Assembly (NCBI RefSeq): GCF_018398315.1
Contig: NZ_JAHBRW010000002.1
Location: forward strand, 418,637 to 482,636
DNA: 64,000 bases
DNA from: Chelatococcus sp. YT9
GTDB taxonomy: Bacteria; Pseudomonadota; Alphaproteobacteria; Rhizobiales; Beijerinckiaceae
Direction of reading: 5' to 3'
In this document: positions 5,884-26,985 of the stretch, one piece after another
Numbering within the stretch: the first letter of the stretch is position 1
How the letters are laid out: every line of letters begins with the position of its first letter
Made by a program: the position numbers and the translations under genes
The notes under the pieces: model-generated
Database searches by the model: none
The model's input: only the letters and a program-made list of their open reading frames with translations
Told to the model about the DNA's origin: nothing

Positions 5884-5895
5884 TACCGATCGGTA
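5884..5895. promoter_or_regulatory. candidate TetR-type operator, site A (TACCGATCGGTA)
   Basis: Perfect 12-bp palindrome in the 195-bp divergent promoter between the NicX-like and cyclase-family genes. It fits the pattern TACYNNNNRGTA found at five other intergenic places in this island (17234, 17340, 18918, 26867, 26974). The likely binder is the TetR regulator at 28449-29078; this assignment is inferred. Confidence 0.55.
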
Positions 5896-5912
5896 GGATT
5901 GTGCAATTGAAA

Positions 5913-5928
5913 ATGAAACTTGTTTCAT
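5913..5928. promoter_or_regulatory. candidate IclR/KdgR-like operator (ATGAAACTTGTTTCAT)
   Basis: Perfect inverted repeat of 7 bp around 2 bp, 17 bp to the right of the TetR-type site. It closely resembles the KdgR box of the IclR family (AATGAAAC..GTTTCATT). Related boxes lie at 19989 and 23551, in front of the iclR gene and the MmgE/PrpD gene. The likely binder is the IclR protein encoded at 19066-19869 (inferred). Confidence 0.5.
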
Positions 5929-6044
5929 ATACTCAATTTGGTCGAGGCGCGTGGCACGCAGCTAGCTCCATGGCATGCCGTTCCAGGAGACGCTTAGCGA
6001 GCCAGACGGCTTCGGTAGCGCGGCGCTTGTATCGAGGGAAAACC

Positions 6045-6860
6045 ATGGTGGATCCGAACGACCTGACCCTCGAAGCCTGGAGTGCAGGCGCCGCGACGGT
6101 CACGCAGGGCAGGATCGTTGAGCTGGGGCGCGTCTTCTATGCCGGAATGCCCCATTACCCCACGCATCCGGACTTCGATATCTCCTTGTTTCGCAGACAC
6201 GGAGACCGGGTTCGTGGCGACGGCGCGAGTTCGGCGAGTTGCCTTTGGTCATTCGGCGGACACACCGGCACCCATATCGATGCGCTTTGCCATGTCTCGC
6301 ATTGCGGATTGATGTACGACGGATCGGCGGTCGACAACAACGCCATCGAGCGCGGTGACGGACCGGGTGACGCCGCCGCTTTCCCCTCCTATGTCCGACG
6401 CGGCGTTCTGTTCGACATAGCTGGGCTGGACGGTGTCGATCGCCTGCAGGGCGAGCGGGTAATCACCGCGGACGACTTTGAGAATGCCTGCCGGGCCAAC
6501 AGCTTTGATCTGCAAAAGGGCGATGTCGCTCTCGTCCGTACGGGATGGGCGCAGCACTGGGGCACCGACGACTATATCGGGCACGAAACCCCGGGGCCGG
6601 ATCTCGAGGGGGCCCGATGGCTCGCTGGCAAAGGCGTCACCCTCGTCGGCAGCGATACTGCCGTATTCGAGAAGGGCCCGATCGCGGAAGCCGCGCCCGT
6701 GCATCATCTCCTGCTGATGGAGCACAGGATTCACATCATGGAGAACCTGGACCTCGAGGCGCTGGCTGCTGCGAGAATCTACACGTTCTTCTTTCTGGCA
6801 CTGCCATTGCGGGTCAGGGGTGGAACGGCCTCCCCGCTTCGTCCCATAGCCATTTACTGA
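6045..6860 (+). CDS. cyclase family protein (kynurenine formamidase-like metal hydrolase)
   Basis: 271 residues of the cyclase/KynB amidohydrolase fold. The metal-binding signature is present as HTGTHIDALCHV (family form HxGTHxDxxxH; the usual Pro before the last His is Leu-Cys here). The body continues with typical elements such as DVALVRTGW and the GSDTAVFE region. Start at the ATG at 6045, preceded by GAGGG five bases upstream; an in-frame ATG at 5901 would lie inside the operator region. Divergent from the NicX-like gene. Family members hydrolyse N-formyl or cyclic amides or lactones; the substrate here is unknown. A short hairpin follows the stop. Confidence 0.85.
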   Translation: MVDPNDLTLEAWSAGAATVTQGRIVELGRVFYAGMPHYPTHPDFDISLFRRHGDRVRGDGASSASCLWSFGGHTGTHIDALCHVSHCGLMYDGSAVDNNAIERGDGPGDAAAFPSYVRRGVLFDIAGLDGVDRLQGERVITADDFENACRANSFDLQKGDVALVRTGWAQHWGTDDYIGHETPGPDLEGARWLAGKGVTLVGSDTAVFEKGPIAEAAPVHHLLLMEHRIHIMENLDLEALAAARIYTFFFLALPLRVRGGTASPLRPIAIY

Positions 6861-6864
6861 CGTT

Positions 6865-6887
6865 GCGGCCGCATCGCATTCGGCCGC
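6865..6887 (+). terminator. hairpin after cyclase gene
   Basis: GCGGCCG at 6865-6871 pairs with CGGCCGC at 6881-6887 over a 9-base loop, four bases after the stop codon. There is no T run, so it is only terminator-like. It lies between convergent genes. Confidence 0.3.
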
Positions 6888-7008
6888 GTGGCCCCTCCGC
6901 CGTATGTTCGCGCGCCGGTTGGGCAGCAAGAGTTAAACCCGGGTTGACGCAATAGCACCGACTTGCCGCAAGCCACCCGCTGCCCGGATGGCCCCTTACC
7001 GCCGACGC

Positions 7009-8574
7009 TCAAGCAATCGCGCGCGATTGGTCCTTCCAATAGGGCTCACGCAGCACGCGCTTCAGCACTTTACCGCTCGCATTACGCGGAAGTTCTTCGA
7101 TGAAGTCGTAATAACGCGGGATCTTGTAGCCGCCGAGCTTGTCGCGGCAAAATTCGATGAGGGTTTCAGCCGGAATGCGGTTGCCCGAGCGCGTGACGCA
7201 GATGGCAAGTGCCGCCTCTCCCCACTTCTCGTCGGGAATGGCAATCACGGCGACATCGCGGATGTCGTCGTGCTCCATCAGCGCGCTCTCGATCTCATTT
7301 GGATAGATGTTCGTGCCGCCCGAGACGATCATGTCCTTGATGCGATCCTGCAGGAAGACATAGCCTTCCTCGTCCATATAGGCAGCATCACCGGAATAGA
7401 GCCAGCCGTCCCGGATTGTCTCGGCCGTTTTTTCAGGATTGCGCCAATAGCCTTTCATGACATTCGGGCCGCGGATGGCGATTTCGCCGACCGTGCCCGG
7501 CGGCACCGGATTTCCCTCGCCGTCGACCACCCTGACCTCCGCCAGAACAACCGAGCGCCCGGTCGAGCGCAACAGCTCCGGCCGTCCGTTCAAGGCTTTC
7601 AGGTGATCAACTTCATTGAGATATGCAATGCCGCCGCAGGATTCGGTGAGACCATATCCCTGGATCAAGGGGCATTTGAACGTGGCTAGCGCCCGCCGCA
7701 ACACGGACTCGCTGATCGGCGCGGCGCCATAATGGATAACCTGAAGGTGACTGAAATCCATCTCGCTGATCTGCGGCATATCGAGCAAAGTCTGGATGAT
7801 CGCTGGAACCATATTGGCGGTTGCAATGCGCTGCTCGGTCAGCGTCCGCAAGAAGAGGTCCGGATCGAAATGCTCCATCAGCACCACGGTGCCGCCGTTG
7901 ATGGCCACCGTCATGATGCGCAGCACGCCCGCAGCGTGATAGAGCGGAGTGACCACGAGGTGGCGCTCCCCGGGTGAGCGGGACAGGACCGAGGCGGACA
8001 TGACCTGCTCGACATGAGCGATCACGTTCTGATGGCTGATCATGATGCCCTTGGGGTGCCCGGTGGTCCCGCTCGTATAGATCAGGTAGAGCATGTCGTC
8101 CTTCGTCAGCTCCAGCCGAGGCGCGTCGGGCGGGGCGCTGCCGATGAAGTCCTCCAGTCTTTGCCAATTGTCGAAAGCGGCCGGACCCACACTGACAAAT
8201 GCGACCGAAGGATCGATATCAGCGCGAATGCTGTCGATCGCGGCGACATAATCCTCCCCGCGTACGAAACACATGCTGACATCCGCATCCTTGAGGATCC
8301 AGAGCCATTCGCGCGGGACAAGACGGTAGTTGAGCATGACAGGTGCCACGCCAGCCTTTGCGCAGGCCATAAACATCACGCCCATGTCGAGATCGTTTGT
8401 CGATAGATAAGCGATGCGGTCGCCACGCCCGAGCCCTGCCGCGATCATGGCATTCGCCCATCTATTGGCGCGAATTTCCGCATCCCGATAGCTGACGACA
8501 ACCCCGTCCTGGATCAGAAACGGTGTGTCCGGCCGCGCCTTCGCATGGTATTCGAACCAGTCGTGCACTCTCAT
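7009..8574 (-). CDS. AMP-forming acyl-CoA ligase (ANL superfamily)
   Basis: 521 residues. Activates a carboxylic acid to its CoA thioester with ATP through an acyl-adenylate. Visible core motifs: P-loop YTSGTTGHPKG (about residue 165), YGLTES, the ATP-binding YSGDAAYMDEEGY followed by hinge DRIKDMIVSGGTNIYP, and the C-terminal catalytic Lys in NASGKVLKR (about residue 505). Start at the ATG at 8572-8574; the longer frame to 8685 overlaps the upstream gene and adds a non-conserved leader. It is the last gene of the leftward operon that begins at 17193. Acid specificity is not readable; medium-chain or branched acids are likely given its neighbours. Confidence 0.92.
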   Translation of the reverse strand: MRVHDWFEYHAKARPDTPFLIQDGVVVSYRDAEIRANRWANAMIAAGLGRGDRIAYLSTNDLDMGVMFMACAKAGVAPVMLNYRLVPREWLWILKDADVSMCFVRGEDYVAAIDSIRADIDPSVAFVSVGPAAFDNWQRLEDFIGSAPPDAPRLELTKDDMLYLIYTSGTTGHPKGIMISHQNVIAHVEQVMSASVLSRSPGERHLVVTPLYHAAGVLRIMTVAINGGTVVLMEHFDPDLFLRTLTEQRIATANMVPAIIQTLLDMPQISEMDFSHLQVIHYGAAPISESVLRRALATFKCPLIQGYGLTESCGGIAYLNEVDHLKALNGRPELLRSTGRSVVLAEVRVVDGEGNPVPPGTVGEIAIRGPNVMKGYWRNPEKTAETIRDGWLYSGDAAYMDEEGYVFLQDRIKDMIVSGGTNIYPNEIESALMEHDDIRDVAVIAIPDEKWGEAALAICVTRSGNRIPAETLIEFCRDKLGGYKIPRYYDFIEELPRNASGKVLKRVLREPYWKDQSRAIA

Positions 8575-8662
8575 TGTCGTCGCTTTCCCCGTCGTTCTCG
8601 AAGCCCCGTGCGCTCGGGCCGATGGTTTCTGTGCCCTGATCGATCTGGGCACCTCCTCCCCT

Positions 8663-11140
8663 TTAGACCACACTTGGCCGGTCATAGCGGGGTCCTTCGT
8701 CGGACCACCATATCGCTTTGCTCTCGCGCAACGGCTTCAGATCGCCTGGAGCGATTCCGACGATCTGAGTGAGCAACTCCACCGTGTCCTCCCCCAGCGC
8801 CGGTGCGTGGCGAAAGCCGCGGAATTCATGAGCCGAAAGCTTTAAAGGCGATCCGGCTACTTTCAGTCGGCCTCCCAAGGGATGGTCAAAGCTGACGAGC
8901 ATTTTGCGCAGCTCGACATGCGGATGCGCATAGGCCTCCTTGATCGTGTTCACCGTGGCGCCGGGGATTCCAAGCTCCACGAAGCGGCGCTGCCATACGT
9001 CCGCACTTTCCCTCGCCATGACGGCTGCAACGAGATCGTTCAGCTCGCCCTCGTTGTCCTGCCGTAACTGTTCCGTGGCAAAGCGCGAATCGTCGATCCA
9101 CTCGGCATGGCCGAACAATCGCGCAGCCGCCGGCCAGAACTGACCGGTGATGCCGAGCACGAACCATTTCCCGTCAGCACATTGGAACGGCCCGTAGGGT
9201 ACTGCGCCGCTGCCACCCCGTCGCTGCAGCGCGGGATATTCGCGGCCCGAAAGCGCAGGGGCGACCCGGTAGGCGTGCATGGCGAGTTGCGTATCGAGCA
9301 GGGCAATATCGATCATTGCACCAGAGCCGCTGGCTCGCCTGCGGCGAAGCGCAGACAGAACCGCGATAACGGCGTAGAACGCGCCCGCGATGCCGCCGAT
9401 CGGGTTGCCGCAACGCACCGGCATAGGGCCGGGTTCGCCGGTGCCGGTAATGCTCATACCACCGCCGAGCGCCTGAATGGTCGCATCATAGGCCGGAAGG
9501 TGCGACCAAGGACCTGTCTTGCCAAACCCCGAAACCGAGCAGGTAATGATGTCGGGCTTGACCGCCTTCAAAGCATCGGGATCGAGCCCGAGGCGATCCA
9601 TGACCCCGCCCTTGTAGTTGTCGTATACAACATCCGCGTGACGCGCGAGTTTCAGGAAGATCTCGCGACCCGAGGCGGACTTCAGGTCGAGGCAAATCGA
9701 TCTTTTATTGCGATTGAGCCCGAAATAATACGCGATTTCCGGTGAGATCCGAAGATCGCGGATATCTTCACAGTTCGCCCCCTCGCCAGGCGGCCGTTCG
9801 ACCTTGACGACCGTTGCGCCAAGGTCAGCGAGCAATTGCGTGCCGAAGGTACCGCTCGGCTCATCTCCGCAAAGCTCCAGAACGAGAAGGCCGCGCAGCG
9901 GCCCGTCGATCGCGGCCAGGCCCGCAATCCGCGCGTCGACTTCACCGAGGCCGACCATGACAGCCGGCAGCGGTTCCAGCGCAATGCCGTCATCACTTCC
10001 CTCCGACACGGGCGCCGTGAAGCGGCCCTTCGGCTCGCCGACGAAGCGGATCGGATTGGCGGCCGTGCGAACGCCTTCGCCCCCCGGGCCATCAAGTGTC
10101 GCGATCATCTCGCGTGCTTGCGCTTGGGGTTGCTCGAAGGCCTCGCGGATCGAATTGACTTTGCCCACCGGAACATGGGCCTCGATCAGCTTCTCCTGCC
10201 AGTGATCCGAGGACGCCGTCAGGAGCTTTTCCTCGATTATCGGCTCAAGGACGCCCTGGTTATCCTGGCGCTTCGCAAGGGAAACGAAACGCGGATCCTC
10301 GATCAGGTCTTCAAGACCAACGGCTTCGCAGAAGCGCTTCCAGAAATTGGACGCAATACCAATCACGATCCACTTGCCGTCCCCACAGAGGAATGGGCCA
10401 TAGGGAACGGTGCCAGCCCCTCCGCGGCGGGGTTCCGGCGCGCCGAATTCGACGCCTGCGCCAAAGGCCTGCGGCACGCGATAGGTGTTGAGCGCCAGCT
10501 GTCCATCGAAGAGAGAAATATCGATGGCTTGCCCCCTGCCGGTACGCGCTCGCTCATCCAGCGCCGCAAGGATGCCGATCACCGCATAGAAGGCGCCCGT
10601 GATATCGCCAATCGGGACACCCCAGCGGCAGGGCATGCCCTGCGAGTCGTTCGAGCCGGTAATGCTCATACCGCCGCTCAGCGCCTGCACGGTGACATCA
10701 TAGGCACCGACGCCCGCCCAAGGACCTGTCGAGCCGTAGCCACTGATCGAGCAGGCGATGATGCGCGGATTGACCTTGGCGAGCGCCGGATGATCAATGC
10801 CGAGACGTGCCATGACGCCAGGCCGGAAATTGTCGTAAACGACGTCGGATACTTCGACCAAGCGAAGAAATTTTTCTTGATCCGCCGCGCTCTTGAGATT
10901 GAGGTTGATGCTCTTCTTGCCGCGCTGCAGGCCAAACAGGAAGCCATCGGCGTCGCTGACCATCTCGTCCGGATCCCTCGGCGCGACCGGCATTCCTCCG
11001 CCTGGCGGTGACACTCGGATGACCTCCGCGCCAAGCGCTGTGAGAATGTCGGTACCAAATGGCCCCGCCACCACGGTGGAGAGATCGAGAACCCTGAGAC
11101 CGGCGAGCGGTTGAGTATCGGAACGGGTCAAGCGTCTCAT
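8663..11140 (-). CDS. tandem-fused class III (CaiB/BaiF) CoA-transferase, second half lacking catalytic Asp
   Basis: 825 residues, about twice the family length, made of two homologous CaiB/BaiF units: about 12-400 and 413-810. Both keep parallel landmarks (VVYDNFRPGVMARLG / VVYDNYKGGVMDRLG; GAYDVTVQALSGGMSITG / PAYDATIQALGGGMSITG; two VPYGPF). The catalytic Asp of formyl-CoA transferase-type enzymes falls in PIGDITGAF (Asp179) in the first unit; the second reads PIGGIAGAF (Gly583), so only the first half should form the acyl-aspartate intermediate. Start at the ATG at 11138-11140, ten bases behind the acyl-CoA dehydrogenase stop. Likely transfers CoA between a thioester and a free acid of the pathway. 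The fusion may replace the interlocked homodimer by one chain; that is inference. Confidence 0.9.
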   Translation of the reverse strand: MRRLTRSDTQPLAGLRVLDLSTVVAGPFGTDILTALGAEVIRVSPPGGGMPVAPRDPDEMVSDADGFLFGLQRGKKSINLNLKSAADQEKFLRLVEVSDVVYDNFRPGVMARLGIDHPALAKVNPRIIACSISGYGSTGPWAGVGAYDVTVQALSGGMSITGSNDSQGMPCRWGVPIGDITGAFYAVIGILAALDERARTGRGQAIDISLFDGQLALNTYRVPQAFGAGVEFGAPEPRRGGAGTVPYGPFLCGDGKWIVIGIASNFWKRFCEAVGLEDLIEDPRFVSLAKRQDNQGVLEPIIEEKLLTASSDHWQEKLIEAHVPVGKVNSIREAFEQPQAQAREMIATLDGPGGEGVRTAANPIRFVGEPKGRFTAPVSEGSDDGIALEPLPAVMVGLGEVDARIAGLAAIDGPLRGLLVLELCGDEPSGTFGTQLLADLGATVVKVERPPGEGANCEDIRDLRISPEIAYYFGLNRNKRSICLDLKSASGREIFLKLARHADVVYDNYKGGVMDRLGLDPDALKAVKPDIITCSVSGFGKTGPWSHLPAYDATIQALGGGMSITGTGEPGPMPVRCGNPIGGIAGAFYAVIAVLSALRRRRASGSGAMIDIALLDTQLAMHAYRVAPALSGREYPALQRRGGSGAVPYGPFQCADGKWFVLGITGQFWPAAARLFGHAEWIDDSRFATEQLRQDNEGELNDLVAAVMARESADVWQRRFVELGIPGATVNTIKEAYAHPHVELRKMLVSFDHPLGGRLKVAGSPLKLSAHEFRGFRHAPALGEDTVELLTQIVGIAPGDLKPLRESKAIWWSDEGPRYDRPSVV

Positions 11141-11150
11141 CCTTGTACCT

Positions 11151-12290
11151 TCAGAGCGTCCGCGCGATCAGCACTTTCATGATCTCCGAGCTTCCGCCTG
11201 CGATGCGGCGGACACGCGCGTCGACATACATGCGCGAGATCGGCGTTTCCGACATGTACCCCCAGCCGCCATGCAGCTGCAGGCACTCGTCCACCACGCG
11301 GCACTGGAGCTCGGTGTTGAACAGCTTGGCGATCGCGGCCTCATCGCTGGTCAGCTCATGCTTCAGATGCTTGGTAATGCAGTGGTCGAGATGCGCCCAG
11401 CCGACGGTGAGATGGGTCTTCAGCTCGGCGAGCTTGAACTGAGTATTCTGGAACTCGATCAGCGGTTTGCCGAAGACCATGCGCTCCTTGACGTAGGCTA
11501 CCGTCGTGTCGAAGGCCTTCTGCGCCGACGCCATGGCGATGGTGGCGATCGATAGTCGCTCCTTCGGAATCTCGTGCATGACCTGCGTGAAACCGGAATT
11601 TTCGCTCCCGAGCAGGTTGCTCACTGGCACACGCACGTTGTCAAAGAACAGCTCGGCCGTATCGGAGGCCTTCATGCCCATCTTTTTGAGCCGCTTGCCT
11701 CGCTTGAAGCCCTCACGCTCACCATCGACGACGATGAGGCTGACGCCCTTGCGGCCGAGTTCCGGCGCCGTTTTGCACACAACAATGACGAAATCGGCAT
11801 TGATGCCATTGGTGATGAACGTCTTCGAGCCGTTAATGACGAACTCGTCGCCATCACGCACCGCCGAGGTCGTAATCGCTTTCAAGTCCGAGCCGGCCTG
11901 CGGCTCGGTCATAGCAACCGCGCCGATCATCTCGCCCGTCACCATGCGCGGAAGCCAACGTTGCTTCTGCTCCTCCGTGCCGAGAGCCTCGAGATAGGCG
12001 GCGACAATATCCGTGTGCGTCTGAATGGTGAAGCTCGACTGGCCAGTGTAGCCGAGCTCTTCATCGATAATGCAAAGGTGAAGGAAATCACCGCCGATGC
12101 CGCCGTATTCGGGACCAACAGTCGGGCAGAGGATGCCCATCTCGCCGGCCTTGCGCCACAGCTCCTTCGGAATGATACCGTCTTCCTCGTATGCATCGAT
12201 GTGCGGCAACAATTCCCTTTCGAAAAACTTGCGGACCGAGCGCCTGAGCTCTTCATGCTCCGCCCCGTAGATTGAACGACCTTCCATCAT
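11151..12290 (-). CDS. acyl-CoA dehydrogenase
   Basis: 379-residue FAD enzyme that introduces an alpha-beta double bond into an acyl-CoA and passes electrons to ETF. Seen: flavin-binding region AVAMTEPQAGSDL, the INGSKTFITNG segment, FGKPL and the C-terminal RRIAGGSSEIMK. The position of the usual MCAD catalytic Glu is Gly, as in long-chain and isovaleryl-CoA dehydrogenases; the helix-G Glu is present in IPKERLSIA, so a branched or long acyl substrate is favoured. Two adjacent ATGs at 12285-12290 are the likely start, with GGAGGGG upstream; a frame extension to 12380 enters the SDR gene. Second to last but two of the operon. Confidence 0.92.
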   Translation of the reverse strand: MMEGRSIYGAEHEELRRSVRKFFERELLPHIDAYEEDGIIPKELWRKAGEMGILCPTVGPEYGGIGGDFLHLCIIDEELGYTGQSSFTIQTHTDIVAAYLEALGTEEQKQRWLPRMVTGEMIGAVAMTEPQAGSDLKAITTSAVRDGDEFVINGSKTFITNGINADFVIVVCKTAPELGRKGVSLIVVDGEREGFKRGKRLKKMGMKASDTAELFFDNVRVPVSNLLGSENSGFTQVMHEIPKERLSIATIAMASAQKAFDTTVAYVKERMVFGKPLIEFQNTQFKLAELKTHLTVGWAHLDHCITKHLKHELTSDEAAIAKLFNTELQCRVVDECLQLHGGWGYMSETPISRMYVDARVRRIAGGSSEIMKVLIARTL

Positions 12291-12318
12291 GGCGATGATC
12301 TCCCCTCCGCCTGAGAAG

Positions 12319-13248
12319 CTACTCGGCCGCTTCCGCCGGCGCGGGGTTGATATAGCCTTGCAGGAGGGCGGAAGGCACAAGCTTGCGGATTTCTTCTGGC
12401 GTGAAGGGTTCGCTGCCCGCCTTCACGACGCTGGCCTTGAGTTCGGGATCGTTGTAGATGCCGATCTTGCGATCCTCGACGCGGAACGCCTGACCATTGA
12501 TATCAGCGGCTTCATCGGAACAGAGATAAGCGGCAAAGGGAGCCACGTGCTCCGGCCCGCCCATGTTGACCACGGCATCATACCGCTCCTGTGTGACAAG
12601 GCCGGCCTCCAGCCGTTTGCGAAAGCCCTCCCTGACGGACTCGTCGAGCGTCAAGCGGGTAGCCGCGGCCGGGCAGACCGTATTGGCGGTCACGCCGTAT
12701 TTGCCGAGTTCACGAGCCATGGCGCGGGTTAGCGAGAATACGCCGCCCTTCGCCGCACCGTAATTGGCGCCGCCGACCGTTCCGCGCCACGCTTCCGACC
12801 CCATATTGATGATGCGTCCCCATTTCTGCTCGCGCATGTGCGGAGCAGCGTGGTGAATCATCGAATACTGGCCACGCAGGTGGATATTTACGACGATATC
12901 CCAGGATTCCACCGGCATATTCCAGATCATCTTGGGACGCAGCACACCAGCATTATTGATAAGAATGTCAACCGAGCCGAATTCTGATTTGCACATCGCC
13001 ACGGTGCGGCCGCAGGCCTCATGATCGTCAACACTCTCGGCCGCAACGATCGCCGTACCGCCGGCCGCCCGGATAGCGGCAGCTGCTTCCTCTGCCGGGC
13101 TTGCGCCTTCCGCTCCTCCGCCGTCCTTGGTGGTACCCGGATCCATGATCACAACGCTTGCACCGTCGCGCGCCAGTTCTTCAGCGATGGCACGGCCGAT
13201 TCCGCGCGCGCCACCAGTGACGATCGCCGCTCTATTTTTCAATCGCAT
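12319..13248 (-). CDS. SDR family 3-hydroxyacyl-CoA dehydrogenase-like protein
   Basis: 309 residues. Rossmann loop TGGARGIG, NNAG in LINNAGVL, catalytic Ser in NMGSEAW and YGAAK are intact. The overall form resembles the dehydrogenase unit of peroxisomal multifunctional enzyme 2, which oxidises 3-hydroxyacyl-CoA. A C-terminal extension of about 50 residues (EDRKIGIYNDPELK onward) goes beyond a minimal SDR. Start at the ATG at 13246-13248, with GGGGAGAAG upstream; the longer frame to 13356 overlaps the aldehyde dehydrogenase. The gaps of 31 and 28 bp to its neighbours place it in the operon. It would supply the 3-keto intermediate, or oxidise another alcohol of the route. Confidence 0.88.
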   Translation of the reverse strand: MRLKNRAAIVTGGARGIGRAIAEELARDGASVVIMDPGTTKDGGGAEGASPAEEAAAAIRAAGGTAIVAAESVDDHEACGRTVAMCKSEFGSVDILINNAGVLRPKMIWNMPVESWDIVVNIHLRGQYSMIHHAAPHMREQKWGRIINMGSEAWRGTVGGANYGAAKGGVFSLTRAMARELGKYGVTANTVCPAAATRLTLDESVREGFRKRLEAGLVTQERYDAVVNMGGPEHVAPFAAYLCSDEAADINGQAFRVEDRKIGIYNDPELKASVVKAGSEPFTPEEIRKLVPSALLQGYINPAPAEAAE

Positions 13249-13279
13249 CTTGTCTTCTCCCCGAATGAGGAGGCGCTCA

Positions 13280-17233: not shown

Positions 17234-17245
17234 TACCTATGAGTA
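17234..17245. promoter_or_regulatory. candidate TetR-type operator, site B1 (TACCTATGAGTA)
   Basis: Fits TACYNNNNRGTA; lies 41 bp before the first gene of the 17193-7009 operon, in a position that would block a promoter. Outer bases extend the symmetry to CTAC...GTAG. Confidence 0.55.
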
Positions 17246-17339: not shown

Positions 17340-17351
17340 TACTATTAGGTA
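17340..17351. promoter_or_regulatory. candidate TetR-type operator, site B2 (TACTATTAGGTA)
   Basis: Second copy of TACYNNNNRGTA in the same intergenic space, 106 bp (about ten helical turns) from site B1, which would allow looping on one DNA face. Embedded in CTACTATTAGGTAGG. Confidence 0.5.
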
Positions 17352-18917: not shown

Positions 18918-18929
18918 TACCCTCGGGTA
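18918..18929. promoter_or_regulatory. candidate TetR-type operator, site C (TACCCTCGGGTA)
   Basis: Perfectly symmetric TACYNNNNRGTA copy, extended to CTACCC..GGGTAG, 107 bp upstream of the racemase start codon. Confidence 0.55.
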
Positions 18930-19018: not shown

Positions 19019-19065
19019 AAAGAGGTATAACCATGACGGTTTCGCGAGCGTCCCCGGCCAGCATC

Positions 19066-19869
19066 TTAACGACGCGGGCGCCGCCGCTGGGAACCGGCGG
19101 CATCCTCCGTAGGGCCCACGCCGGGATAGGGAAAGCTTTCTCCGCCGAGCTTTGACGAGATCCGGTTGCCCGCCTCCTGCATGAGGTGGGATAGCTCCGG
19201 GATCCGGCTGTCGACGCGGACTGCTGGACCGCTGAGCGTCAACGAATATTGCACAATGTTGCCCTGCTCAAATAGCGGAACGGCAATGGCCGTCAGGCCC
19301 GGAACCCGCGTGCCGCTGGTCACCGCGATGCCCGCGATGCGAATGGCGTTGAGATCGGCCCGCAATTCGCTCAGTTTGACAAGCCTCGCGGCGCCGATGG
19401 CGTCCAAGAGGTCGCCGCGTTCGCGCTCTGCCATGAAAGCCAGAAGCACACGGCCGGCCGCGCCAAACAGAATGGGGACACGTTCTCCCGAACGGGAGAT
19501 TGCCATGAGGGGCGAAGGCGTATCGACAACCTCGATCACCATTCTCTCGTGATGCGCGCGAGCGTTGAGCGTGATGGTCTCGCCGGAGAGCTTGCTGAGC
19601 TCGATCATTGTCGAGCGCGCCGCCTCGCGCGCGGTCAGCGTACCCTGCACCAAACCCGCCAACCGCACGAGCTTCATCGAAAGCACGTATTGACCGTTTT
19701 GGAGGCGCACGAGATAGCCTTCGTTCTCGAGGGTGTTCACAAGCCTGAATGCCGTCGCCTTCGCTATCGGCGTGCGCTCGGCGATGTCCTGGAGAGACAG
19801 GCTCACATGATCGGAGTCGAAAGCGTCAAAAATCGATAACGCACGCGTAACAGATCTGGCCAAAGTCAC
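19066..19869 (-). CDS. IclR family transcriptional regulator
   Basis: 267 residues: N-terminal winged helix-turn-helix (ALSIFDAF, LQDIAERTPIAKATAFRLVNTLENEGYL, about residues 8-60) and a C-terminal effector domain (residues about 80-245; GRVLLAFMAERE, GTRVPGLTAIAVPLF). The tail is basic. IclR regulators in catabolic clusters usually sense a pathway acid. It lies between the racemase gene and tctA on the same strand. A KdgR-like box 120 bp upstream of its start (19989-20004) suggests autoregulation, and matching boxes occur upstream of the MmgE/PrpD and cyclase genes. Confidence 0.92.
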   Translation of the reverse strand: MTLARSVTRALSIFDAFDSDHVSLSLQDIAERTPIAKATAFRLVNTLENEGYLVRLQNGQYVLSMKLVRLAGLVQGTLTAREAARSTMIELSKLSGETITLNARAHHERMVIEVVDTPSPLMAISRSGERVPILFGAAGRVLLAFMAERERGDLLDAIGAARLVKLSELRADLNAIRIAGIAVTSGTRVPGLTAIAVPLFEQGNIVQYSLTLSGPAVRVDSRIPELSHLMQEAGNRISSKLGGESFPYPGVGPTEDAAGSQRRRPRR

Positions 19870-20093: not shown

Positions 20094-21596
20094 TCATTCT
20101 TCCTGAAAGGCCTCCTCACGCTTCGCGCGGATCATCGGAGAGATGATCATGGCCAGAAGGAGGGCTGCGAGAATAAGGAAAACGAGGCTGGTCGGGCGGG
20201 TGACGAAGACGCTCCAGTCGCCGCGCGAGAGAAGCAGTGTACGGCGCAAATTTTCCTCGAATAGCGGGCCGAGGATGAACCCGAGGATTAGCGGCGCCGG
20301 TTCGCAGTTGATCTTCGTGAGGATGTAACCGACCACCCCGAAAAATGCCATCACCAGCACTTCGAAGGAGGCGTTGTTCACGCCATAGACCCCGATCACG
20401 CAGAACATCAGGATAGCGGGAAACATCAGGCGATAGGGCACCTTCAACAGGCGGACCCAGATGCCGATGAGCGGAAGGTTGATGACCAGCAGCATCAGAT
20501 TGCCGAGCCACATCGAAGCGATCAGCCCCCAGAAGAGCTGAGGCTGATTCCGAACCACTTCCGGCCCCGGTTGTATGCCATGGATCATGAGCGCGCCGGC
20601 CATCATCGCGATCAGGGCGTTGCCCGGAATACCGAGCGTCAGGAGAGGGATGAAGGACGTCTGAGCACCCGCGTTGTTCGCAGCCTCCGGGCCCGCAACC
20701 CCCTCGACGGCACCCCGGCCAAAGCGGCGCGGCGTCTTGGAGAGCTTTTTCTCGATGGTGTAGGACGCGAAGGACGACAGAAGGGCACCGCCGCCCGGCA
20801 GAACGCCGAGCAAGGAACCAAGTGCCGTGCCGCGCAGGGCCGGTTTCCATGATCGTTTGAAATCATCACGGGTCGGCCAAAGCGTACCGATCGCTTCCGT
20901 CCGAACGACCGCGGACTTCGATTCCAGGTTCACCATGACCTCGCGGATGCCAAAGAGGCCCATGGCGAGCGCAACGAACTCGATACCATCCGCAAGATCG
21001 ATGAGATTGAAAGTGAAACGGCGCTCCCCAGAGTTGATGTCGGTTCCGACGATCCCGAGCAGCAGCCCCATGACGACCATCGCGATCGCCTTCAGGAGCG
21101 ATCCCTGGGCCAGGACCACGGCGGCGATGAGGCCGAAGAGCATCAGAGAACAGTATTCGGCGGGCTGGAAGCTCTCGGCGATGGCCGTCAGCGGCGGCGT
21201 GAACGCGACGATAACGAAGGTGGCGATGGTGCCGGCCACCATTGAGGCGAGCGCCGCCACGGCCAGTGCAGCGCCTGCGCGGCCTTGCCTCGCCATCTGG
21301 TAGCCGTCGAGGCAGGTGACGACGGATGAGGATTCCCCCGGCATGTTCACGAGGATCGATGTCGTGGAGCCTCCATATTGGGCGCCGTAGTAGATGCCCG
21401 CCAGCATGATGAGGGCCGTGGTCGGATCGAGATAGAACGTGATGGGCAAGAGCATCGCGACCGTTGCCAACGGACCGATCCCAGGCAGGACGCCGATAAG
21501 CGTTCCAAGCAGTGCCCCAAGGAAGCAGAAGCCAATGTTGACGGGCGTCAAGGCGATCGAAAAGCCGAGCGCGAGGTTACTGAGGATATCGCTCAT
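20094..21596 (-). CDS. tctA: tripartite tricarboxylate transporter large permease TctA
   Basis: 500 residues, the size of TctA. Many membrane segments and the family signatures GTLIGVLPGIGPLA, YYGAQYGGSTTSILVNMPGE (two short stretches), GVLPGGGALLSSF and the AANNAGAQTSFIPLLTLGIPG region are visible. It forms the large inner-membrane permease of a secondary carboxylate importer that works with TctB and a periplasmic Bug protein. The start ATG at 21594-21596 shares one base with the tctB stop (TGATG), so the two are translationally coupled. The likely cognate binding proteins are the two Bug genes upstream in the same operon. Confidence 0.94.
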   Translation of the reverse strand: MSDILSNLALGFSIALTPVNIGFCFLGALLGTLIGVLPGIGPLATVAMLLPITFYLDPTTALIMLAGIYYGAQYGGSTTSILVNMPGESSSVVTCLDGYQMARQGRAGAALAVAALASMVAGTIATFVIVAFTPPLTAIAESFQPAEYCSLMLFGLIAAVVLAQGSLLKAIAMVVMGLLLGIVGTDINSGERRFTFNLIDLADGIEFVALAMGLFGIREVMVNLESKSAVVRTEAIGTLWPTRDDFKRSWKPALRGTALGSLLGVLPGGGALLSSFASYTIEKKLSKTPRRFGRGAVEGVAGPEAANNAGAQTSFIPLLTLGIPGNALIAMMAGALMIHGIQPGPEVVRNQPQLFWGLIASMWLGNLMLLVINLPLIGIWVRLLKVPYRLMFPAILMFCVIGVYGVNNASFEVLVMAFFGVVGYILTKINCEPAPLILGFILGPLFEENLRRTLLLSRGDWSVFVTRPTSLVFLILAALLLAMIISPMIRAKREEAFQEE

Positions 21597-22039
21597 CAGG
21601 GCCACACCTTCATAGGCAGACCGACGCCGTAGATGAAGACGACGTAGCAGAACACGATTGCACACAGAATGAGGATGGGAATTTCTCTGTAGCGCGTCTC
21701 GCGACTGGCCAGCATGCTGATGCCGAGAAGCATCGCCAGCGAAATAACGAGGCCCGCCCTTTCCAGCAACAGGGCGAACACAACGATCCCGAGCGTCGGC
21801 AGCACCAGGACACGCCACTGGATCGGATCGATCTCCTCACGCTCCGTCTCGCGCATCGCGCCGATAATCTGAACCAATCCAAGCACGACCAGGATGATGG
21901 ATAGGATCAGCGGAAAATAGCCCGGCCCCATCTCGCTGGGCGTGCCGGTCTCATAATTTCGCCCGATGGCCAGCCCGAGCGCGCCCACCGCTAGGATGAA
22001 AAGCCCGGCGAGGAAATCCTTCGATCGTAAGAGTAGCAT
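21596..22039 (-). CDS. tctB: tripartite tricarboxylate transporter small permease TctB
   Basis: 147 residues with about four membrane segments. Family marks: LRSKDFLAGLFILAVGALGL at the start, MGPGYFPLI, and hydrophobic pairs in the second half. It is the small membrane subunit of the TTT importer. Start at the ATG at 22037-22039, preceded by GGGAGGATAGCG, an excellent ribosome binding site; a GTG start at 22066 is possible but unneeded. Coupled to tctA. Sequence is weakly conserved in this family, but context makes the call secure. Confidence 0.9.
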   Translation of the reverse strand: MLLLRSKDFLAGLFILAVGALGLAIGRNYETGTPSEMGPGYFPLILSIILVVLGLVQIIGAMRETEREEIDPIQWRVLVLPTLGIVVFALLLERAGLVISLAMLLGISMLASRETRYREIPILILCAIVFCYVVFIYGVGLPMKVWP

Positions 22040-22180
22040 CGCTATCCTCCCTAGAAGTCTGTGCACGGCTGGTCATCAGGTCGTTCTGATCCTGCCGGGC
22101 GTGCGTCATGGCCTTGGACGCGGCGGCAGCACAGGACGATCCGGACCATCCCATCGTCTTTGTGACTGGCGCCCGCCTCT

Positions 22181-23536
22181 TCATCCCGGCTTCAGCGTCT
22201 CGACCAGTCCGTCGAAGTCCTGAACATCCTCAAGAGCAGTAAGCCGGCCAAATGCATCGCGTGCACGCTGGCGGCCAAGGGTACGTTCGGCACAGGACAA
22301 GAATTTCTCTTCCAGCTCCGATTGCCCGAGCGGGTGGGCAGGGTGCCCGATGGCTTCCTCCACATGGCGGGAGAATACGCGGCCGCCCTTCAGCGTCACC
22401 GTCACGGTGCTCGGATAGACGCCGTTGCGGTAGATGAGCGCCGGATCGACGGAAGTAGCAACCCTGCCCATGAGCGCCTGCACATCAGGGGCCGTCACCC
22501 GATCGGGCTCGAACTGATCGAGACCGCAGGCTCCGTCAAGCGCGGCAACAGCGAGGCAATATTCCATGCTGAACTTCGCCTGCAACGGCGTGGTCGGTTG
22601 GCGATACGTCAGGATGTCGGCTACGAGAGCGATCGTCGTGCAGCGGATCGACTCGATCTCAGTTGCTGTGAAACGATGATCTTGCAGAAGCGCCAGCAGA
22701 GCGTCGAGGGCGGAGTGGGTGCAGCCACAGCACGGGAAGCGCTTGATGCTGACCCCAGACGATTCGATCTCCAGAGTGCCTCCAAAGGAAAAGCCCTCCA
22801 CCTGTCCCTCGCCGCGGAAAACGTCGATGAAGCCGTGCGTCCCGTCGAGGGCTGCAGGATCTGTCGCAAGGCCTGCTTTCGCCAGATGAACTGCAACGAC
22901 ACCATTGCGCGCCGCCATGCCCGCATGGAGCGGCTTCACCATCGAACCGAAGTTCTTCCGGATACCCGCGCTACTGGACGCCGCAACACCGATCACCGCG
23001 ATGATCTCCCGTTCCGACAGCCCTGCGACCCGTGCGCCGGCGAGCGCAGCCGATAGCGTGCCTAAGGTGGAGGTCGCGTGCCATCCCGCCTCGTAATGTG
23101 ACGGGTTCATGCGACGGCCAAGGCCAGCTGCGATTTCCAGTCCAAGCGCGTAGGCTACGATGATATCGCGGCCACAGATCTGCCGTCCGGTTCCCAGTGC
23201 GGCTGCCGCCGCCACCATCGGTACAGAGGGATGGCCAATCATCGCAAGTGATGAATCATCGAAGTCAAAGGCATGCCCAGCGGTGCCGTTTGCGAAGGCC
23301 GCGGCAGTTGGCGAGGCAAGCGTATTCGTTCCCAGAATGACGGCCGGGCCGTCCTTTCCGTCGAGAGCAACGGCTTTCCGGACGATGGCCGCCTCCGCGC
23401 TGCCCGCGCCCGCCAGGATGCAGCCGAAAGCGTCGATGATCGACAGCTTCGCGCGCTCTCCGGCAAGCGCCGAGAGATCCTCGTAGCAGAGTTCAGATGC
23501 AAGGCGTGCAAAACCGTCTGTTACGGTACCCGTCAT
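22181..23536 (-). CDS. MmgE/PrpD family protein
   Basis: 451 residues of the MmgE/PrpD fold (2-methylcitrate dehydratase, cis-aconitate decarboxylase, iminodisuccinate epimerase relatives). Seen: the N-terminal ANGTAGHAFDFDDSSL region, GLEIAAGLGRRMNP, and the CCGCTHSALDALLAL His/Cys segment, then the C-terminal beta domain (YPSTVTVTLKGGR). In TTT clusters such proteins probably dehydrate or isomerise the imported polycarboxylate. Start at the ATG at 23534-23536; a TTG at 23566 would include the operator repeat lying directly upstream. It sits between MDR and tctB in one operon. Reaction not predictable. Confidence 0.88.
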   Translation of the reverse strand: MTGTVTDGFARLASELCYEDLSALAGERAKLSIIDAFGCILAGAGSAEAAIVRKAVALDGKDGPAVILGTNTLASPTAAAFANGTAGHAFDFDDSSLAMIGHPSVPMVAAAAALGTGRQICGRDIIVAYALGLEIAAGLGRRMNPSHYEAGWHATSTLGTLSAALAGARVAGLSEREIIAVIGVAASSSAGIRKNFGSMVKPLHAGMAARNGVVAVHLAKAGLATDPAALDGTHGFIDVFRGEGQVEGFSFGGTLEIESSGVSIKRFPCCGCTHSALDALLALLQDHRFTATEIESIRCTTIALVADILTYRQPTTPLQAKFSMEYCLAVAALDGACGLDQFEPDRVTAPDVQALMGRVATSVDPALIYRNGVYPSTVTVTLKGGRVFSRHVEEAIGHPAHPLGQSELEEKFLSCAERTLGRQRARDAFGRLTALEDVQDFDGLVETLKPG

Positions 23537-23541
23537 CGAAA

Positions 23542-23566
23542 TTCCATTTGATGGAACTGATTTCAA
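23542..23566. promoter_or_regulatory. overlapping inverted repeats before MmgE/PrpD gene (IclR-like box)
   Basis: TTCCAT-TTG-ATGGAA at 23542-23556 is a perfect repeat, and ATGGAACTGATTTCAA at 23551-23566 matches the 7-2-7 box at 5913 with mismatches. The pair starts 5 bp upstream of the MmgE/PrpD start codon, where binding would block transcription or initiation. Confidence 0.45.
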
Positions 23567-23658
23567 TATTGATACATGAGTTGGACTCGGGATTAAAGCG
23601 ATCCTTTTGACCGCACCGAGTGGAAACCGTGCAGGTGCTGCCTTTCCGGCGCCCGACT

Positions 23659-24660
23659 TCAGGTCCCGGACGTCAGTACAACATGGCCGATCGTTTCCCG
23701 ATCGAGCACTGTCCGGAAAGCATCGGCAACGTGTTCCAGCGGATAGCTCGCCGCCACGATAGGCTTGATCTCGCCGCGGCCGTGCATCTCGCCAAGGCGC
23801 GTGAAGATCGCCCGGATGTCCGGCTCGAATCTGTTGCGCTCATCAATCTTATAATAACCCATGTAGAGACCGACGATGCTGATGTTCTTCACGAGCACAA
23901 GGTTCGCCGGTATTGTCGGGATCGTTCCGGAAGCAAAACCGATCGGCAGGATGCGTCCCCCCGGTTTCAGGCACCGCAGGGCCTCGCCGAAGATCACGCC
24001 GCCCACCGGGTCAAGCGCACAATCGACGCCCACACCCTCGGTGACCCGCATCACCGCTGATTTCAGCGAGGCAGGATCCGCACTAAGGACGACGTCAGCC
24101 CCGCGCTGGCGCAAACATGCGCGCTTGGCTTCCGAGGAGGCGCTTGCAATAACCCTCGCTCCGAGTGCTTTCGCCATTTCCAGAGCAGCGATGCCGACGC
24201 CGCCCGCCGCGCCGGTAACAAGCAGTGTCTCGCCTCCCTGGATATTCAGAAGACGCGGCCACGTGAGGGCTGCGAGTGCGGAGTTATACGACGTATTGAG
24301 CGTGGCCGCCTCGGCGTAGCTCATCGCATCCGGGATGGGGTAGACATTCGCCGCGTGGGCGCATGCTTCTTCGGCGAGCCCCCCATATTCCAACGAGGCC
24401 AGAACCCGCTGGCCCACTGCAAGCCCACGATCCGCACGGCCACCGATTTCCACAATGTCTCCGGCGATCGTATTGCCGGGAACGAAGGGCAAGGTCGGGC
24501 GCCGCTGGTATCGCCCTGCCACCAGAAGTGACAAGGCAAATGTCACCGGCGCCGCACGCATGCGGATCCGGACCTGGTCAGGCGAGCATATCGGTCGGGC
24601 AACTGCCGAAACAAACAAGGCAGCCGGTTCGCACCATTCCGAGATCTCGACCGCCCGCAT
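23659..24660 (-). CDS. MDR-type NADPH:quinone oxidoreductase / enoyl reductase
   Basis: 333 residues of the zinc-free medium-chain reductase group. N-terminal GroES-like domain (FVPGNTIAGDIVEIG, VGQRVLASLEYGGLAEEA) and a Rossmann domain with the AAGGVG nucleotide loop (LLVTGAAGGVGIAALEMAKALGARVI read in two parts), then PVGGVIFGEALRCLKPGG. Zinc-ligand cysteines are lacking. Members reduce quinones or 2-enoyl-CoA with NADPH. It lies 5 bp past the first Bug gene and 122 bp before the MmgE/PrpD gene, all on one strand. A crotonyl-CoA-reductase-like role in the acyl-CoA island is possible but unproven. Confidence 0.87.
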   Translation of the reverse strand: MRAVEISEWCEPAALFVSAVARPICSPDQVRIRMRAAPVTFALSLLVAGRYQRRPTLPFVPGNTIAGDIVEIGGRADRGLAVGQRVLASLEYGGLAEEACAHAANVYPIPDAMSYAEAATLNTSYNSALAALTWPRLLNIQGGETLLVTGAAGGVGIAALEMAKALGARVIASASSEAKRACLRQRGADVVLSADPASLKSAVMRVTEGVGVDCALDPVGGVIFGEALRCLKPGGRILPIGFASGTIPTIPANLVLVKNISIVGLYMGYYKIDERNRFEPDIRAIFTRLGEMHGRGEIKPIVAASYPLEHVADAFRTVLDRETIGHVVLTSGT

Positions 24661-24665
24661 CGATC

Positions 24666-25649
24666 CTATTTCACTTCGATCTTTGCCGCTTCGATGATTG
24701 TCTTCGTTGTCGCTGTTTCCTCGTCGACGACCTTCCGAAAGTATTCGCGATCGCCGCCTTCGGCGAGGAAGCCGAGGTCGACGAGTTGCTTCTTGATGGT
24801 TTCGTTCTCCAGCATCTTGTTAACGTCAGCGTTGATCTTCTCGAGGATGTCAATTGGCGTTTTTGCCGGCGCCAGAAGCCCGAACCATGAATTGTAGGTG
24901 AGCTCGACCCCATTCTCCTTGAACGTCGGCAACTGGGGCAGCGAGGGGATGCGTTCGCTCGATAGCGCGCCGAGCGCAACGGCCTTGCCTGCCTCGACCT
25001 GCGGCATGACGGTTGAGGGAGCGCCGATATACATCTGCACCGTATTGGCGATAATCGCCTGCATGACCGGCGCAGCACCATTGAACGGAATATGCTTGAG
25101 GTCAACGCCGGCGGCGAGCTTGAACATCTCGGCTGCCAAATGAGGAGCGCTGCCGATCGCGGAGGTGCCGTAGTTCAGCTGACCTGGCCGGCTTTTCGCA
25201 AGCGCAATGAAGGACTTAATATCCTTGACGCCGACACCCGTGCTGACCACCATGACCTGGGGCGCAATGCCAACGAGCGCCACAGGCGCGAAATCGCGTG
25301 CCGTGATATAGGGCGTGGTGCTCGGATTGAGCAACTCGTATGTGCCATGCGAGGCGTTGTTGCCAAGGATCAGCGTGTAACCGTCGGGCTTGGCGCGGGC
25401 GACATAGTCGGAACCGATCGTGCCCGATGCACCAGCCCGGTTTTCAGCGACGACCGGCTGGCCCCAGCTTTCCGATAAACTCTGTGCGACGAGGCGCCCG
25501 AGAAGGTCGGTTGGACCACCAGGTGGATAGGGTATGATCAGTTTGACCGGCTTGTCAGGGTAGGCCGGCTGCGCCGTCGCGCCACCGCCGGTCACAACCG
25601 CCGCGACCGCGATCACGGCCGCGCCCCGTATGATCGTTCTTCTTTTCAT
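24666..25649 (-). CDS. Bug/TctC tripartite tricarboxylate transporter binding protein 1
   Basis: 327 residues. Sec-type signal peptide (MKRRTIIRGAAVIAVAAVV, cleavage near ATAQP) and the Bug hallmark PDKPVKLIIPYPPGGPTD, followed by AGASGTIGSDYVARAKPDGYT in two blocks. It captures a carboxylate in the periplasm for TctAB. Start at the ATG at 25647-25649 with GGGAGGAAAGCCG upstream. It is a close paralog of the following gene: most motif blocks are shared (LGNNASHG, YELLNPS, SAPH, HIPFNG, FGLLAPAK versus YGLLAPAK). Two receptors for one permease suggest two related ligands. Confidence 0.94.
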   Translation of the reverse strand: MKRRTIIRGAAVIAVAAVVTGGGATAQPAYPDKPVKLIIPYPPGGPTDLLGRLVAQSLSESWGQPVVAENRAGASGTIGSDYVARAKPDGYTLILGNNASHGTYELLNPSTTPYITARDFAPVALVGIAPQVMVVSTGVGVKDIKSFIALAKSRPGQLNYGTSAIGSAPHLAAEMFKLAAGVDLKHIPFNGAAPVMQAIIANTVQMYIGAPSTVMPQVEAGKAVALGALSSERIPSLPQLPTFKENGVELTYNSWFGLLAPAKTPIDILEKINADVNKMLENETIKKQLVDLGFLAEGGDREYFRKVVDEETATTKTIIEAAKIEVK

Positions 25650-25833
25650 CGGCTTTCCTCCCTGCGGACGGCGAGCGGACCTTCATTGGAGGCAACGGAC
25701 GTGTAGCGATCCGGCTCCGGGCTGTCGCGCCGGATGGGTGCCCGATCGGTTGCTACCCCAGCATCACCCTCCATCGCGCCCAACGCATTGCACGCCATCG
25801 ATGGGCGGGCGCCGGCCCTGCACACCAGGATTC

Positions 25834-26811
25834 CTATTTCACCGCGATTTTAGCGTCTTGAAGAAGCTTCTTGGTGCGATCCACCTCGCCTTCAAGCATG
25901 GTCGTGAACTCGGCGCGCGTACCAAGCTTGCGCTCGAAACCGAGCTTGGCCATCTCTGTCTTGACATCGTCGCCGGCTAACACCTTCGAGACATCAGCAT
26001 TGATCTTGTCGAGAACGGCAGGTGGCACCTTGGCCGGAGCGAGGAGGCCATACCAGGAGTCGTAGGCGACATCGACGCCTTCCTCGCGAATGGTCTTGAC
26101 GTCCGGAAGGGCCGAGATGCGCTCGGAAGCGACGGCGCCGATCAGCGTCGCCTTGCCCGCCTGAACATGAGGCATGACGCTCGAGACACCGCCCATGTAG
26201 ACTTGGACCGAATCTGAAAGAAGTGCCTGAATGGCCGGTGCGGTGCCGTTGAAAGGAATATGCTTCATATCGATGCCGGCAGCGATATTGAGCATTTCCG
26301 AAGCGAAATGCGGCGCGCTGCCAATTGCCGCCGAAGCATAGTTCACCTTGCCCGGATTGGCCTTCACATAGGCCACGAACTCCTTGATATCCTTCGCGGG
26401 AACGTTCTTGTTGATGATCATGACGAGGGGCGCGACGCCGACGAGGGACACTGGAGCGAAGTCCTTCATCGTATGGTATGGCGTCACGGATGGATTGAGC
26501 AATTCGTATGCGCCATGGGAGGCATTGTTCCCAAGCACCAGCGTATAGCCATCGGGCTCAGCACGCGCGACCGCGTCGGAGCCGATTGTCCCCGACGCGC
26601 CAGCCTTGTTGTCGACGACGACCGGCTGCTTCCACAGGTCGGAGAGCCGCTGTGCCACAAGCCGGCCAACAAGGTCCGTGGGACCGCCCGGTGGATAAGG
26701 GATGACGAGCTTGACAGGCTTTGTCGGAAAATCCGCAGCTGATGCGCCAGCAATACTTCCCACCAGCGCGAGCGTCGCCCCAGCCACCAGCAGTGCGCGT
26801 CTCTTGATCAT
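25834..26811 (-). CDS. Bug/TctC tripartite tricarboxylate transporter binding protein 2
   Basis: 325 residues. Signal peptide MIKRRALLVAGATLALVGS with cleavage near ASAAD, then PTKPVKLVIPYPPGGPTD and the same block order as the neighbouring paralog. First gene of the leftward uptake operon that reaches tctA. The intergenic space to the divergent acyl-CoA synthetase holds two TACYNNNNRGTA sites, one 55 bp before this start. Ribosome binding site GGGAGGGACGGAGC is close upstream. The two Bug proteins look like a fairly recent tandem duplication, with the ligand probably a (branched) mono- or dicarboxylate; that is inference. Confidence 0.94.
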   Translation of the reverse strand: MIKRRALLVAGATLALVGSIAGASAADFPTKPVKLVIPYPPGGPTDLVGRLVAQRLSDLWKQPVVVDNKAGASGTIGSDAVARAEPDGYTLVLGNNASHGAYELLNPSVTPYHTMKDFAPVSLVGVAPLVMIINKNVPAKDIKEFVAYVKANPGKVNYASAAIGSAPHFASEMLNIAAGIDMKHIPFNGTAPAIQALLSDSVQVYMGGVSSVMPHVQAGKATLIGAVASERISALPDVKTIREEGVDVAYDSWYGLLAPAKVPPAVLDKINADVSKVLAGDDVKTEMAKLGFERKLGTRAEFTTMLEGEVDRTKKLLQDAKIAVK

Positions 26812-26866
26812 GCTCCGTCCCTCCCTGTTATGCAGCCGCTTTCGCGGAGATTGACAAGAGAATATC

Positions 26867-26878
26867 TACTCGTGAGTA
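26867..26878. promoter_or_regulatory. candidate TetR-type operator, site D (TACTCGTGAGTA)
   Basis: TACYNNNNRGTA copy with TACT arms, 55 bp upstream of the Bug 2 start in the divergent promoter. Confidence 0.55.
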
Positions 26879-26973
26879 TAACGCAAGGGGGCGATTGACA
26901 GGCGGAAGAAGTCAATATTCCCGGCTGGGGCGGACATTGCCGCCTTTCCTAAGCATCCGGCCTCACTGAAATT

Positions 26974-26985
26974 TACCCGCTGGTA
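26974..26985. promoter_or_regulatory. candidate TetR-type operator, site E (TACCCGCTGGTA)
   Basis: TACYNNNNRGTA copy, 12 bp before the ATG of the NDP-forming acyl-CoA synthetase, next to its ribosome binding site. Together with site D it covers both directions of the divergent promoter. Confidence 0.55.

Follow-up and report, generated by a model that had tools for sequence, protein, structure and literature searches.

The 64-kb window analysed here, by which we mean the whole stretch of 64,000 nucleotides from Chelatococcus sp. YT9, carries an island of genes for acyl-coenzyme A (acyl-CoA) catabolism that ends with a tetR gene and in which six exact copies of the palindrome TACYNNNNRGTA stand in the gaps between genes (Table 1). 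Judging from the sequence comparisons described below, we predict that these palindromes are very probably the operators of the TetR_C_24-type repressor that this tetR gene encodes.

If the operons are delimited by the spacing of the genes, the sites would face six transcription units with 20 genes. The eight-gene unit encodes, in order, a MaoC hydratase, a ChsH2-like OB/zinc-ribbon protein, a thiolase, an aldehyde dehydrogenase, a short-chain dehydrogenase (SDR), an acyl-CoA dehydrogenase, a double CaiB CoA-transferase and an AMP-forming acyl-CoA ligase. The names of the aldehyde dehydrogenase and the SDR in this unit, like those of the Bug and oxidoreductase proteins in the transporter unit, come from reading the open reading frames (ORFs) rather than from a family search. 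A single protein of 825 amino acids with two class III CoA-transferase halves is encoded at 8663-11140. The MaoC hydratase, the ChsH2-like protein and a lipid-transfer-type thiolase are consecutive at 14721-17193, a row that we take to resemble steroid side-chain retro-aldolase sets. The protein labelled NicX-like has its family match in Peptidase_M29, and its orthologues share 83% identity in genome G150 and 79% in genome G149. In a plasmid collection, the island DNA matched one record over a 5% piece only, and the TetR protein matched 36 records, all at less than 60% identity.

Table 1. Genes and palindromes of the island and its surroundings (window coordinates).
Feature	Position	Strand	Remarks
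Short-chain dehydrogenase (SDR)	3807..4802	-	family search
Peptidase_M29/NicX-like enzyme	4839..5849	-	family search
Predicted operator TACCGATCGGTA	5884..5895		between M29/NicX-like gene (-) and cyclase gene (+); exact match
Cyclase-family protein, PF04199	5901..6860	+	start probably near 6045
Eight-gene unit led by MaoC hydratase	7009..17193	-	ORFs with Pfam, NCBIfam and PDB searches
Predicted operator TACCTATGAGTA	17234..17245		proximal, before MaoC operon; exact match
Predicted operator TACTATTAGGTA	17340..17351		distal, 106 bp from proximal 17234; exact match
Class III CoA-transferase, PF02515	17620..18810	-	start inferred
Predicted operator TACCCTCGGGTA	18918..18929		before class III CoA-transferase gene; exact match
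IclR-family regulator	19066..19869	-	no site in 287 bp upstream
Bug2, Bug1, quinone oxidoreductase-like, MmgE/PrpD, TctB, TctA (tripartite tricarboxylate transporter)	20094..26811	-	
Predicted operator TACTCGTGAGTA	26867..26878		before Bug2 operon; exact match
Predicted operator TACCCGCTGGTA	26974..26985		before acyl-CoA synthetase alpha/tetR operon, 107 bp from 26867; exact match
Acyl-CoA synthetase alpha-like (CoA_binding_2, Succ_CoA_lig)	26998..28407	+	directly before tetR
tetR (TetR_N + TetR_C_24), proposed cognate repressor	28449..29078	+	ORF opens at 28404
HxlR-family protein	31907..32302		outside island
Seventh copy TTACCGGAAGGTAA	31938..31949		5' end of HxlR-family gene, outside island; flanks differ

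Clustering and conservation of the palindromes

Seven exact copies of the pattern were observed in the window, and 100 dinucleotide shuffles of the same 64 kb gave 0.21 copies on average and two at most. The whole genome (6,741,503 bases) holds 26 copies, close to the roughly 22 expected when the window shuffles are extrapolated, so the pattern is at background outside the island region. When 26 sites were placed at random 20,000 times, the maximum in any span of 21.1 kb was five, which occurred twice, and six was never reached. A reversed-pattern control (326 occurrences in the genome versus 26) was set aside in favour of the window dinucleotide shuffles because its base steps differ.

According to a simple codon-usage gene model, from which all coding and non-coding calls were taken, the six island copies and the copy at 31938 are non-coding, and the 19 copies outside the window divide into 15 coding and four non-coding. 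The island (3807-29078) contains 2,260 non-coding bases with six sites, or one per 377 bases. The remaining non-coding DNA, which amounts to about 772 kb if the window's coding fraction of 88.5% applies genome-wide, has five sites (the four above plus 31938), or one per 154 kb, a density some 400 times lower (ratio about 410). The longest ORFs, 4839-5906 and 17620-18963, would span sites 5884 and 18918, and the likely starts (about 5849 and 18774-18810) leave both sites outside genes. Across the 11 island gaps that were checked, the six exact copies were accompanied by no copies with one mismatch.

These results bear on an earlier note on this DNA, which had listed the six island copies, described them as always lying between genes, and placed them before the divergent NicX/cyclase pair, the hydratase operon (twice), a racemase gene and the divergent Bug/acyl-CoA synthetase pair. 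All six are exact matches where that note had put them, all are intergenic under the gene model, and the promoter placements stand except for the racemase label, for which a class III CoA-transferase (PF02515) is the better fit. The list was one copy short, lacking the seventh copy at 31938.

Most of the island is kept in two other genomes, an Oricola metagenome-assembled genome (MAG; loci L151 and L152) and Rhodobacterales HKCCE2091 (L153 and L154). Over their best aligned piece, the orthologues share 50-84% identity (about 50% for Bug and TctA, about 51% for the acyl-CoA synthetase alpha, or ACS-alpha, and 59-84% for most core enzymes), and TetR is 67-71% identical. Gene order differs in both genomes, with the CoA-transferase and MaoC genes divergent and tetR flanked by the genes of the double CoA-transferase and the AMP ligase, and no match to MmgE, IclR or HxlR was found in the 80 kb fetched around the two islands. 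Within these 80 kb, 15 of 17 copies of the pattern stand at orthologous island promoters, and the island accounts for 8 of the 29 genome-wide copies in the Oricola MAG and 7 of 18 in HKCCE2091.

The cyclase/M29 gap carries two sites in each genome (L151 12132 and 12239; L153 12074 and 12150), as does the CoA-transferase/MaoC gap, in which L151 14623 and L153 14477 precede MaoC and L151 14517 and L153 14382 precede the CoA-transferase orthologue. Two sites also precede each Bug orthologue (L151 3342/3437; L153 8000/8117). The gap between the oxidoreductase and ACS-alpha genes has two sites in the Oricola MAG and one in HKCCE2091, with L152 7661 and L154 7293 lying before ACS-alpha. The two remaining copies are L152 2597, which is inside the double CoA-transferase gene, and L154 17404. 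The latter is the own copy of a second TetR gene (L154 16759-17446; 38% identical) located beside an acyl-CoA dehydrogenase gene. Partial islands in betaproteobacterial MAGs (L071 and L072) are weaker, and in L071 a site separates the double CoA-transferase gene from tetR.

The 21 island sites of the three genomes yield the extended consensus YC-TACY-N4-RGTA-GR. In the three M29 promoters, as read by eye, a TTG element starts 11 bases ahead of the site, which is immediately followed by TATT, so that the operator would sit in a 17-base promoter spacer. Likewise, each of the three genomes has a TTGACA that starts 12-13 bases ahead of the MaoC-proximal site. Both placements suit a repressor that blocks RNA polymerase.

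Association with a clade of tetR genes

A search of 149 genomes with the island TetR gave a match at E 1e-30 in 16 of them, its own included, and the best match outside its own genome was 42% identical. In a first set of relatives, the exact pattern was present in 5 of 21 loci, in all five cases upstream of tetR when strand was considered. The larger set comprised the best 80 of 543 loci (four at 60-71% identity and 76 at 36-45%), a few of which overlap the first set, and the window's own sites lie outside all of these counts. Here 59 of 80 relatives had the exact pattern in the 350 bp preceding the tetR match, as did 34 of 51 once similar upstream regions had been removed. The density of the pattern upstream of tetR was 84 times that found elsewhere in these loci (64 copies in 28 kb versus 39 in 1.43 Mb).

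The distant relatives (36-45% identity) show a preference for a spacer of four bases, found in 58 of 76, with other spacers occurring in 0-4 of 76 and offset control windows holding the pattern in 0-2 of 65-75. When inverted repeats with four-base arms and spacers of 0-12 were enumerated in the relatives' loci, TACT-N4-AGTA ranked first (p 4e-41 versus random windows of the same loci). According to record titles, the clade includes members from Acidovorax, Variovorax, Azospirillum, Microvirga, Novosphingobium and others. As a control, 25 TetR_N genes of the Chelatococcus genome yielded one with a site within about 1.5 kb, which is the neighbour of 31938; the island tetR's own sites fall just beyond that span. 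Loci of MaoC relatives had a site in 2 of 26 cases; two site-free paralogue loci of the Chelatococcus genome itself are counted in this total.

Some relatives carry more than one site. Three exact tandem pairs are 19 bp apart (L073 9882/9901, L105 9892/9911 and L124 9870/9889), and many tetR promoters of the Acidovorax/Variovorax type, L082 and L085 among them, carry an imperfect second copy, TACT-N4-CGTA, at the same 19-bp distance upstream of the exact one. Pairs in Microvirga are 145-160 bp apart and about 9 kb upstream of tetR (L080 928/1073, L106 965/1110 and L109 938/1098). The L106 pair separates an acyl-CoA dehydrogenase match from an enoyl-CoA hydratase gene, and the surrounding cluster also contains ligase, thiolase and FadB-like genes.

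The island TetR has a TetR_N domain (PF00440; 62.9 bits versus a cut-off of 24), and this domain is present in all 30 rows of an alignment of the protein with 29 of the 80 relatives (alignment A3). An AlphaFold2 model with a mean predicted local distance difference test score of 88.2 displays the standard all-helical two-domain TetR fold. The top Foldseek matches of the model are the TetR regulators PfmR, AibR (with isovaleryl-CoA), DarR and KstR2, and FadR (with stearoyl-CoA) ranks lower; the ligand states of AibR and FadR are taken from the titles of the structure entries. Because the nearest folds include the acyl-CoA-bound AibR and FadR, an acyl-CoA is the likely ligand, and the modelled island TetR is probably acyl-CoA-responsive. 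KstR2 and PfmR are likewise linked to acyl-CoA. The similarity at the sequence level is modest, with AibR, PfmR and KstR2 at 22-28% identity to the island TetR in the Foldseek alignments and Bacillus FadR at 20%. Furthermore, the island TetR scores 46.9 bits against the Bacillus FadR model NF053878, for which the equivalog cut-off is 200 bits. The known operators of KstR2, PfmR and Bacillus FadR differ from the island palindrome.

The closest counterpart at the DNA is DarR, a TetR-family regulator of mycobacteria and Rhodococcus. The DarR operator is ATACT(N)4AGTAT and the DNA is contacted by Lys44 and Gly45, of which Gly45 is described as essential for binding (PMC10636190). The island sites share its TACT-N4-AGTA core and 4-base spacer, and the island TetR is homologous to DarR, whose structure is solved, in sequence and predicted fold. 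The contacting Lys44 aligns with K66 of the island TetR, a position occupied by lysine in every one of the 30 rows of A3. On these grounds the clade may be DarR-like at the DNA. Unlike DarR, whose outer operator bases are A...T, the island operators mostly have C...G there, and the island gene context is acyl-CoA catabolism.

Other proteobacterial systems resemble the island in part. MbdR of Azoarcus sp. CIB, a TetR repressor released by an aryl-CoA, acts at several operators within a single catabolic cluster (PMC4424350). Several predicted operators within one cluster are a feature of the island too, but the MbdR operator is ATAC-N10-GTAT, whereas with TACY/RGTA arms a spacer of 10 occurs in 1 of 76 relatives compared with 58 of 76 for a spacer of four. 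LiuQ and FadP of the Betaproteobacteria (RegPrecise) belong to the TetR family as well, and comparative genomics predicts that they regulate acyl-CoA catabolism (PMC5343134). Many members of the clade described here come from Acidovorax, Variovorax and their kin, and LiuQ and FadP may overlap with it. EdcR recognizes TAC-N5-GTA, with a different spacing (PMC8700777). A literature search, beyond whose reach most subscription papers lay, found the motif described for no proteobacterial TetR belonging to the clade.

Weighing the proposed regulon and its alternatives

The assignment of the sites to the island TetR, which the earlier note had flagged as an inference, gains support from the sites that precede the genes of distant tetR relatives and from the two orthologous islands, whose fetched stretches lack an IclR match. 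The broader proposal of a probable local regulon that unites genes of unrelated appearance is likewise strengthened, both by clustering and by the comparison of the same promoters in related genomes, where the sites are kept. The two outcomes that the note had named as refuting it, an equal site density in non-coding DNA elsewhere in the genome and a lack of site conservation in relatives with the genes, did not occur.

Several observations weigh against this interpretation. All 30 rows of A3 have proline where DarR has Gly45, as do 16 of 22 rows of the wider alignment A1 (counted by eye), and the ligand of DarR is c-di-AMP, not an acyl-CoA. This proline and the catabolic genes set the clade apart from DarR. 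Scanned with the sigma-70 consensus (9 of 12 positions), the three site-bearing regions other than that of 18918 showed no promoter, and thus occlusion is suggested by the TTG and TATT elements read by eye. Gaps of 122-184 bp without sites precede Bug1, MmgE and TctB, and these genes may be transcribed from separate promoters. The stretches fetched around both orthologous islands gave no match to MmgE or IclR, and 18 of the 76 distant relatives lack an exact site in the 350 bp before tetR. Finally, the Burkholderiales MAG that contains L072 (G152) has 424 copies of TACYNNNNRGTA in 3.9 Mb versus 133 of the reversed control, whereas the other 11 genomes in the same comparison have fewer copies than the control. 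This excess may reflect base composition or codon preference. Sites in such a genome prove nothing, and those of L072 were dropped as support, although the locus is still included in the counts of 80.

The alternative that survives best retains the same regulator and the same sites and differs in mechanism: paired sites would be bound together with the DNA looped between them, such that repression would be cooperative rather than a matter of simple promoter occlusion. The paired sites are spaced by 106 and 107 bp in the island and by 95, 107, 106, 95, 117, 76 and 95 bp in the two relatives, and all nine values fall near whole helical turns (7-11; R 0.91 at 10.5 bp). Compared with random spacings, this phasing has p values of 0.0002 for all nine, 0.001 for seven and 0.006 for the five distinct values, in a test that left out three 19 bp pairs and one overlapping 4 bp pair. 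However, the test was post hoc, chosen after the data had been seen; the number of independent pairs is small, and R falls to 0.57 when five pairs of 145-160 bp from wider relatives are included. A phylum-wide pair search gave a match in 32 of 374 genomes, by eye mainly chance-like pairs. On balance the phasing is suggestive, and we regard looping as less likely than simple occlusion.

A different regulator is far harder to sustain. The HxlR-family protein, or some unlinked regulator, could in principle bind the sites, given that copy 31938 lies at the 5' end of the HxlR gene itself and that a site of the TTAC...GTAA type is known for HxlR relatives. This is quite improbable: HxlR lacks a match in the 80 kb fetched around both orthologous islands, the flanks of 31938 are T...A in contrast to the C...G of the island sites (33 of 42 half-sites), and the pattern shows its enrichment in front of tetR-clade genes. 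Copy 31938 is perhaps the HxlR-family protein's own site, or a chance occurrence. Both HxlR and the neighbouring second TetR (32898) were rejected, as 31938 is the only copy there; among six loci of that TetR and its relatives, its own locus alone has a site.

Still less credible is the IclR-family protein, whose gene has the merit of lying within the island. It was rejected because neither orthologous island has a match to it in the fetched stretches, which keep the sites, the loci of its relatives have a site in 0 of 3, and its own 287-bp upstream gap has none; the pattern tracks tetR genes, not IclR. That the clustering is an effect of chance or composition, as the near-chance rate of the 19 copies outside the window might suggest, can be dismissed in view of the random placements, none of which reached six in 21 kb, and of the sites that two other genomes keep at the corresponding promoters.

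The evidence thus returns us to the island TetR as the cognate regulator. The computed support comes from clustering, from conservation at orthologous promoters and from the association of the motif with the regulator clade, and the view of the island as a local regulon of an autoregulated TetR_C_24 repressor with a DarR-like core operator, a system of known kind, is well supported by sequence comparison. Autoregulation is predicted because the palindrome stands upstream of tetR's own operon, with site 26974 before the ACS-alpha and tetR genes. We infer DNA binding by the island TetR, repression rather than activation, the ligand, the limits of the operons and the substrate.

In the proposed mechanism, a TetR dimer at each site would block transcription of the unit or units it faces. 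Site 5884 would control the M29-SDR genes and the cyclase gene, 17234 and 17340 the eight-gene MaoC operon, 18918 the CoA-transferase gene, 26867 the Bug/Tct operon, and 26974 the ACS-alpha-tetR operon itself. An acyl-CoA of the pathway would probably release the repressor, and this release would switch on together uptake (Bug/Tct), CoA activation, dehydrogenation, hydration and thiolase or retro-aldol cleavage.

We also raise, tentatively and with doubts of the same order as those about looping, a wider possibility. The relatives might constitute an undescribed proteobacterial TetR_C_24 clade with a Lys-Pro recognition helix and a TACY-N4-RGTA code across the alpha- and betaproteobacteria, in which paired operators at whole turns (7-11) would loop divergent promoters in acyl-CoA islands and other branches would use tandem sites 19 bp apart.

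As a type, a local TetR repressor with several operators is ordinary. Its significance lies in what it would connect, because one regulon would tie a transporter to CoA-activating enzymes, a beta-oxidation-like set and a probable aldolase set. This would narrow the search for the substrate of the island and offer a candidate pair of inducer and sensor. Moreover, a DNA code for this TetR clade would make its regulons predictable in many genomes.

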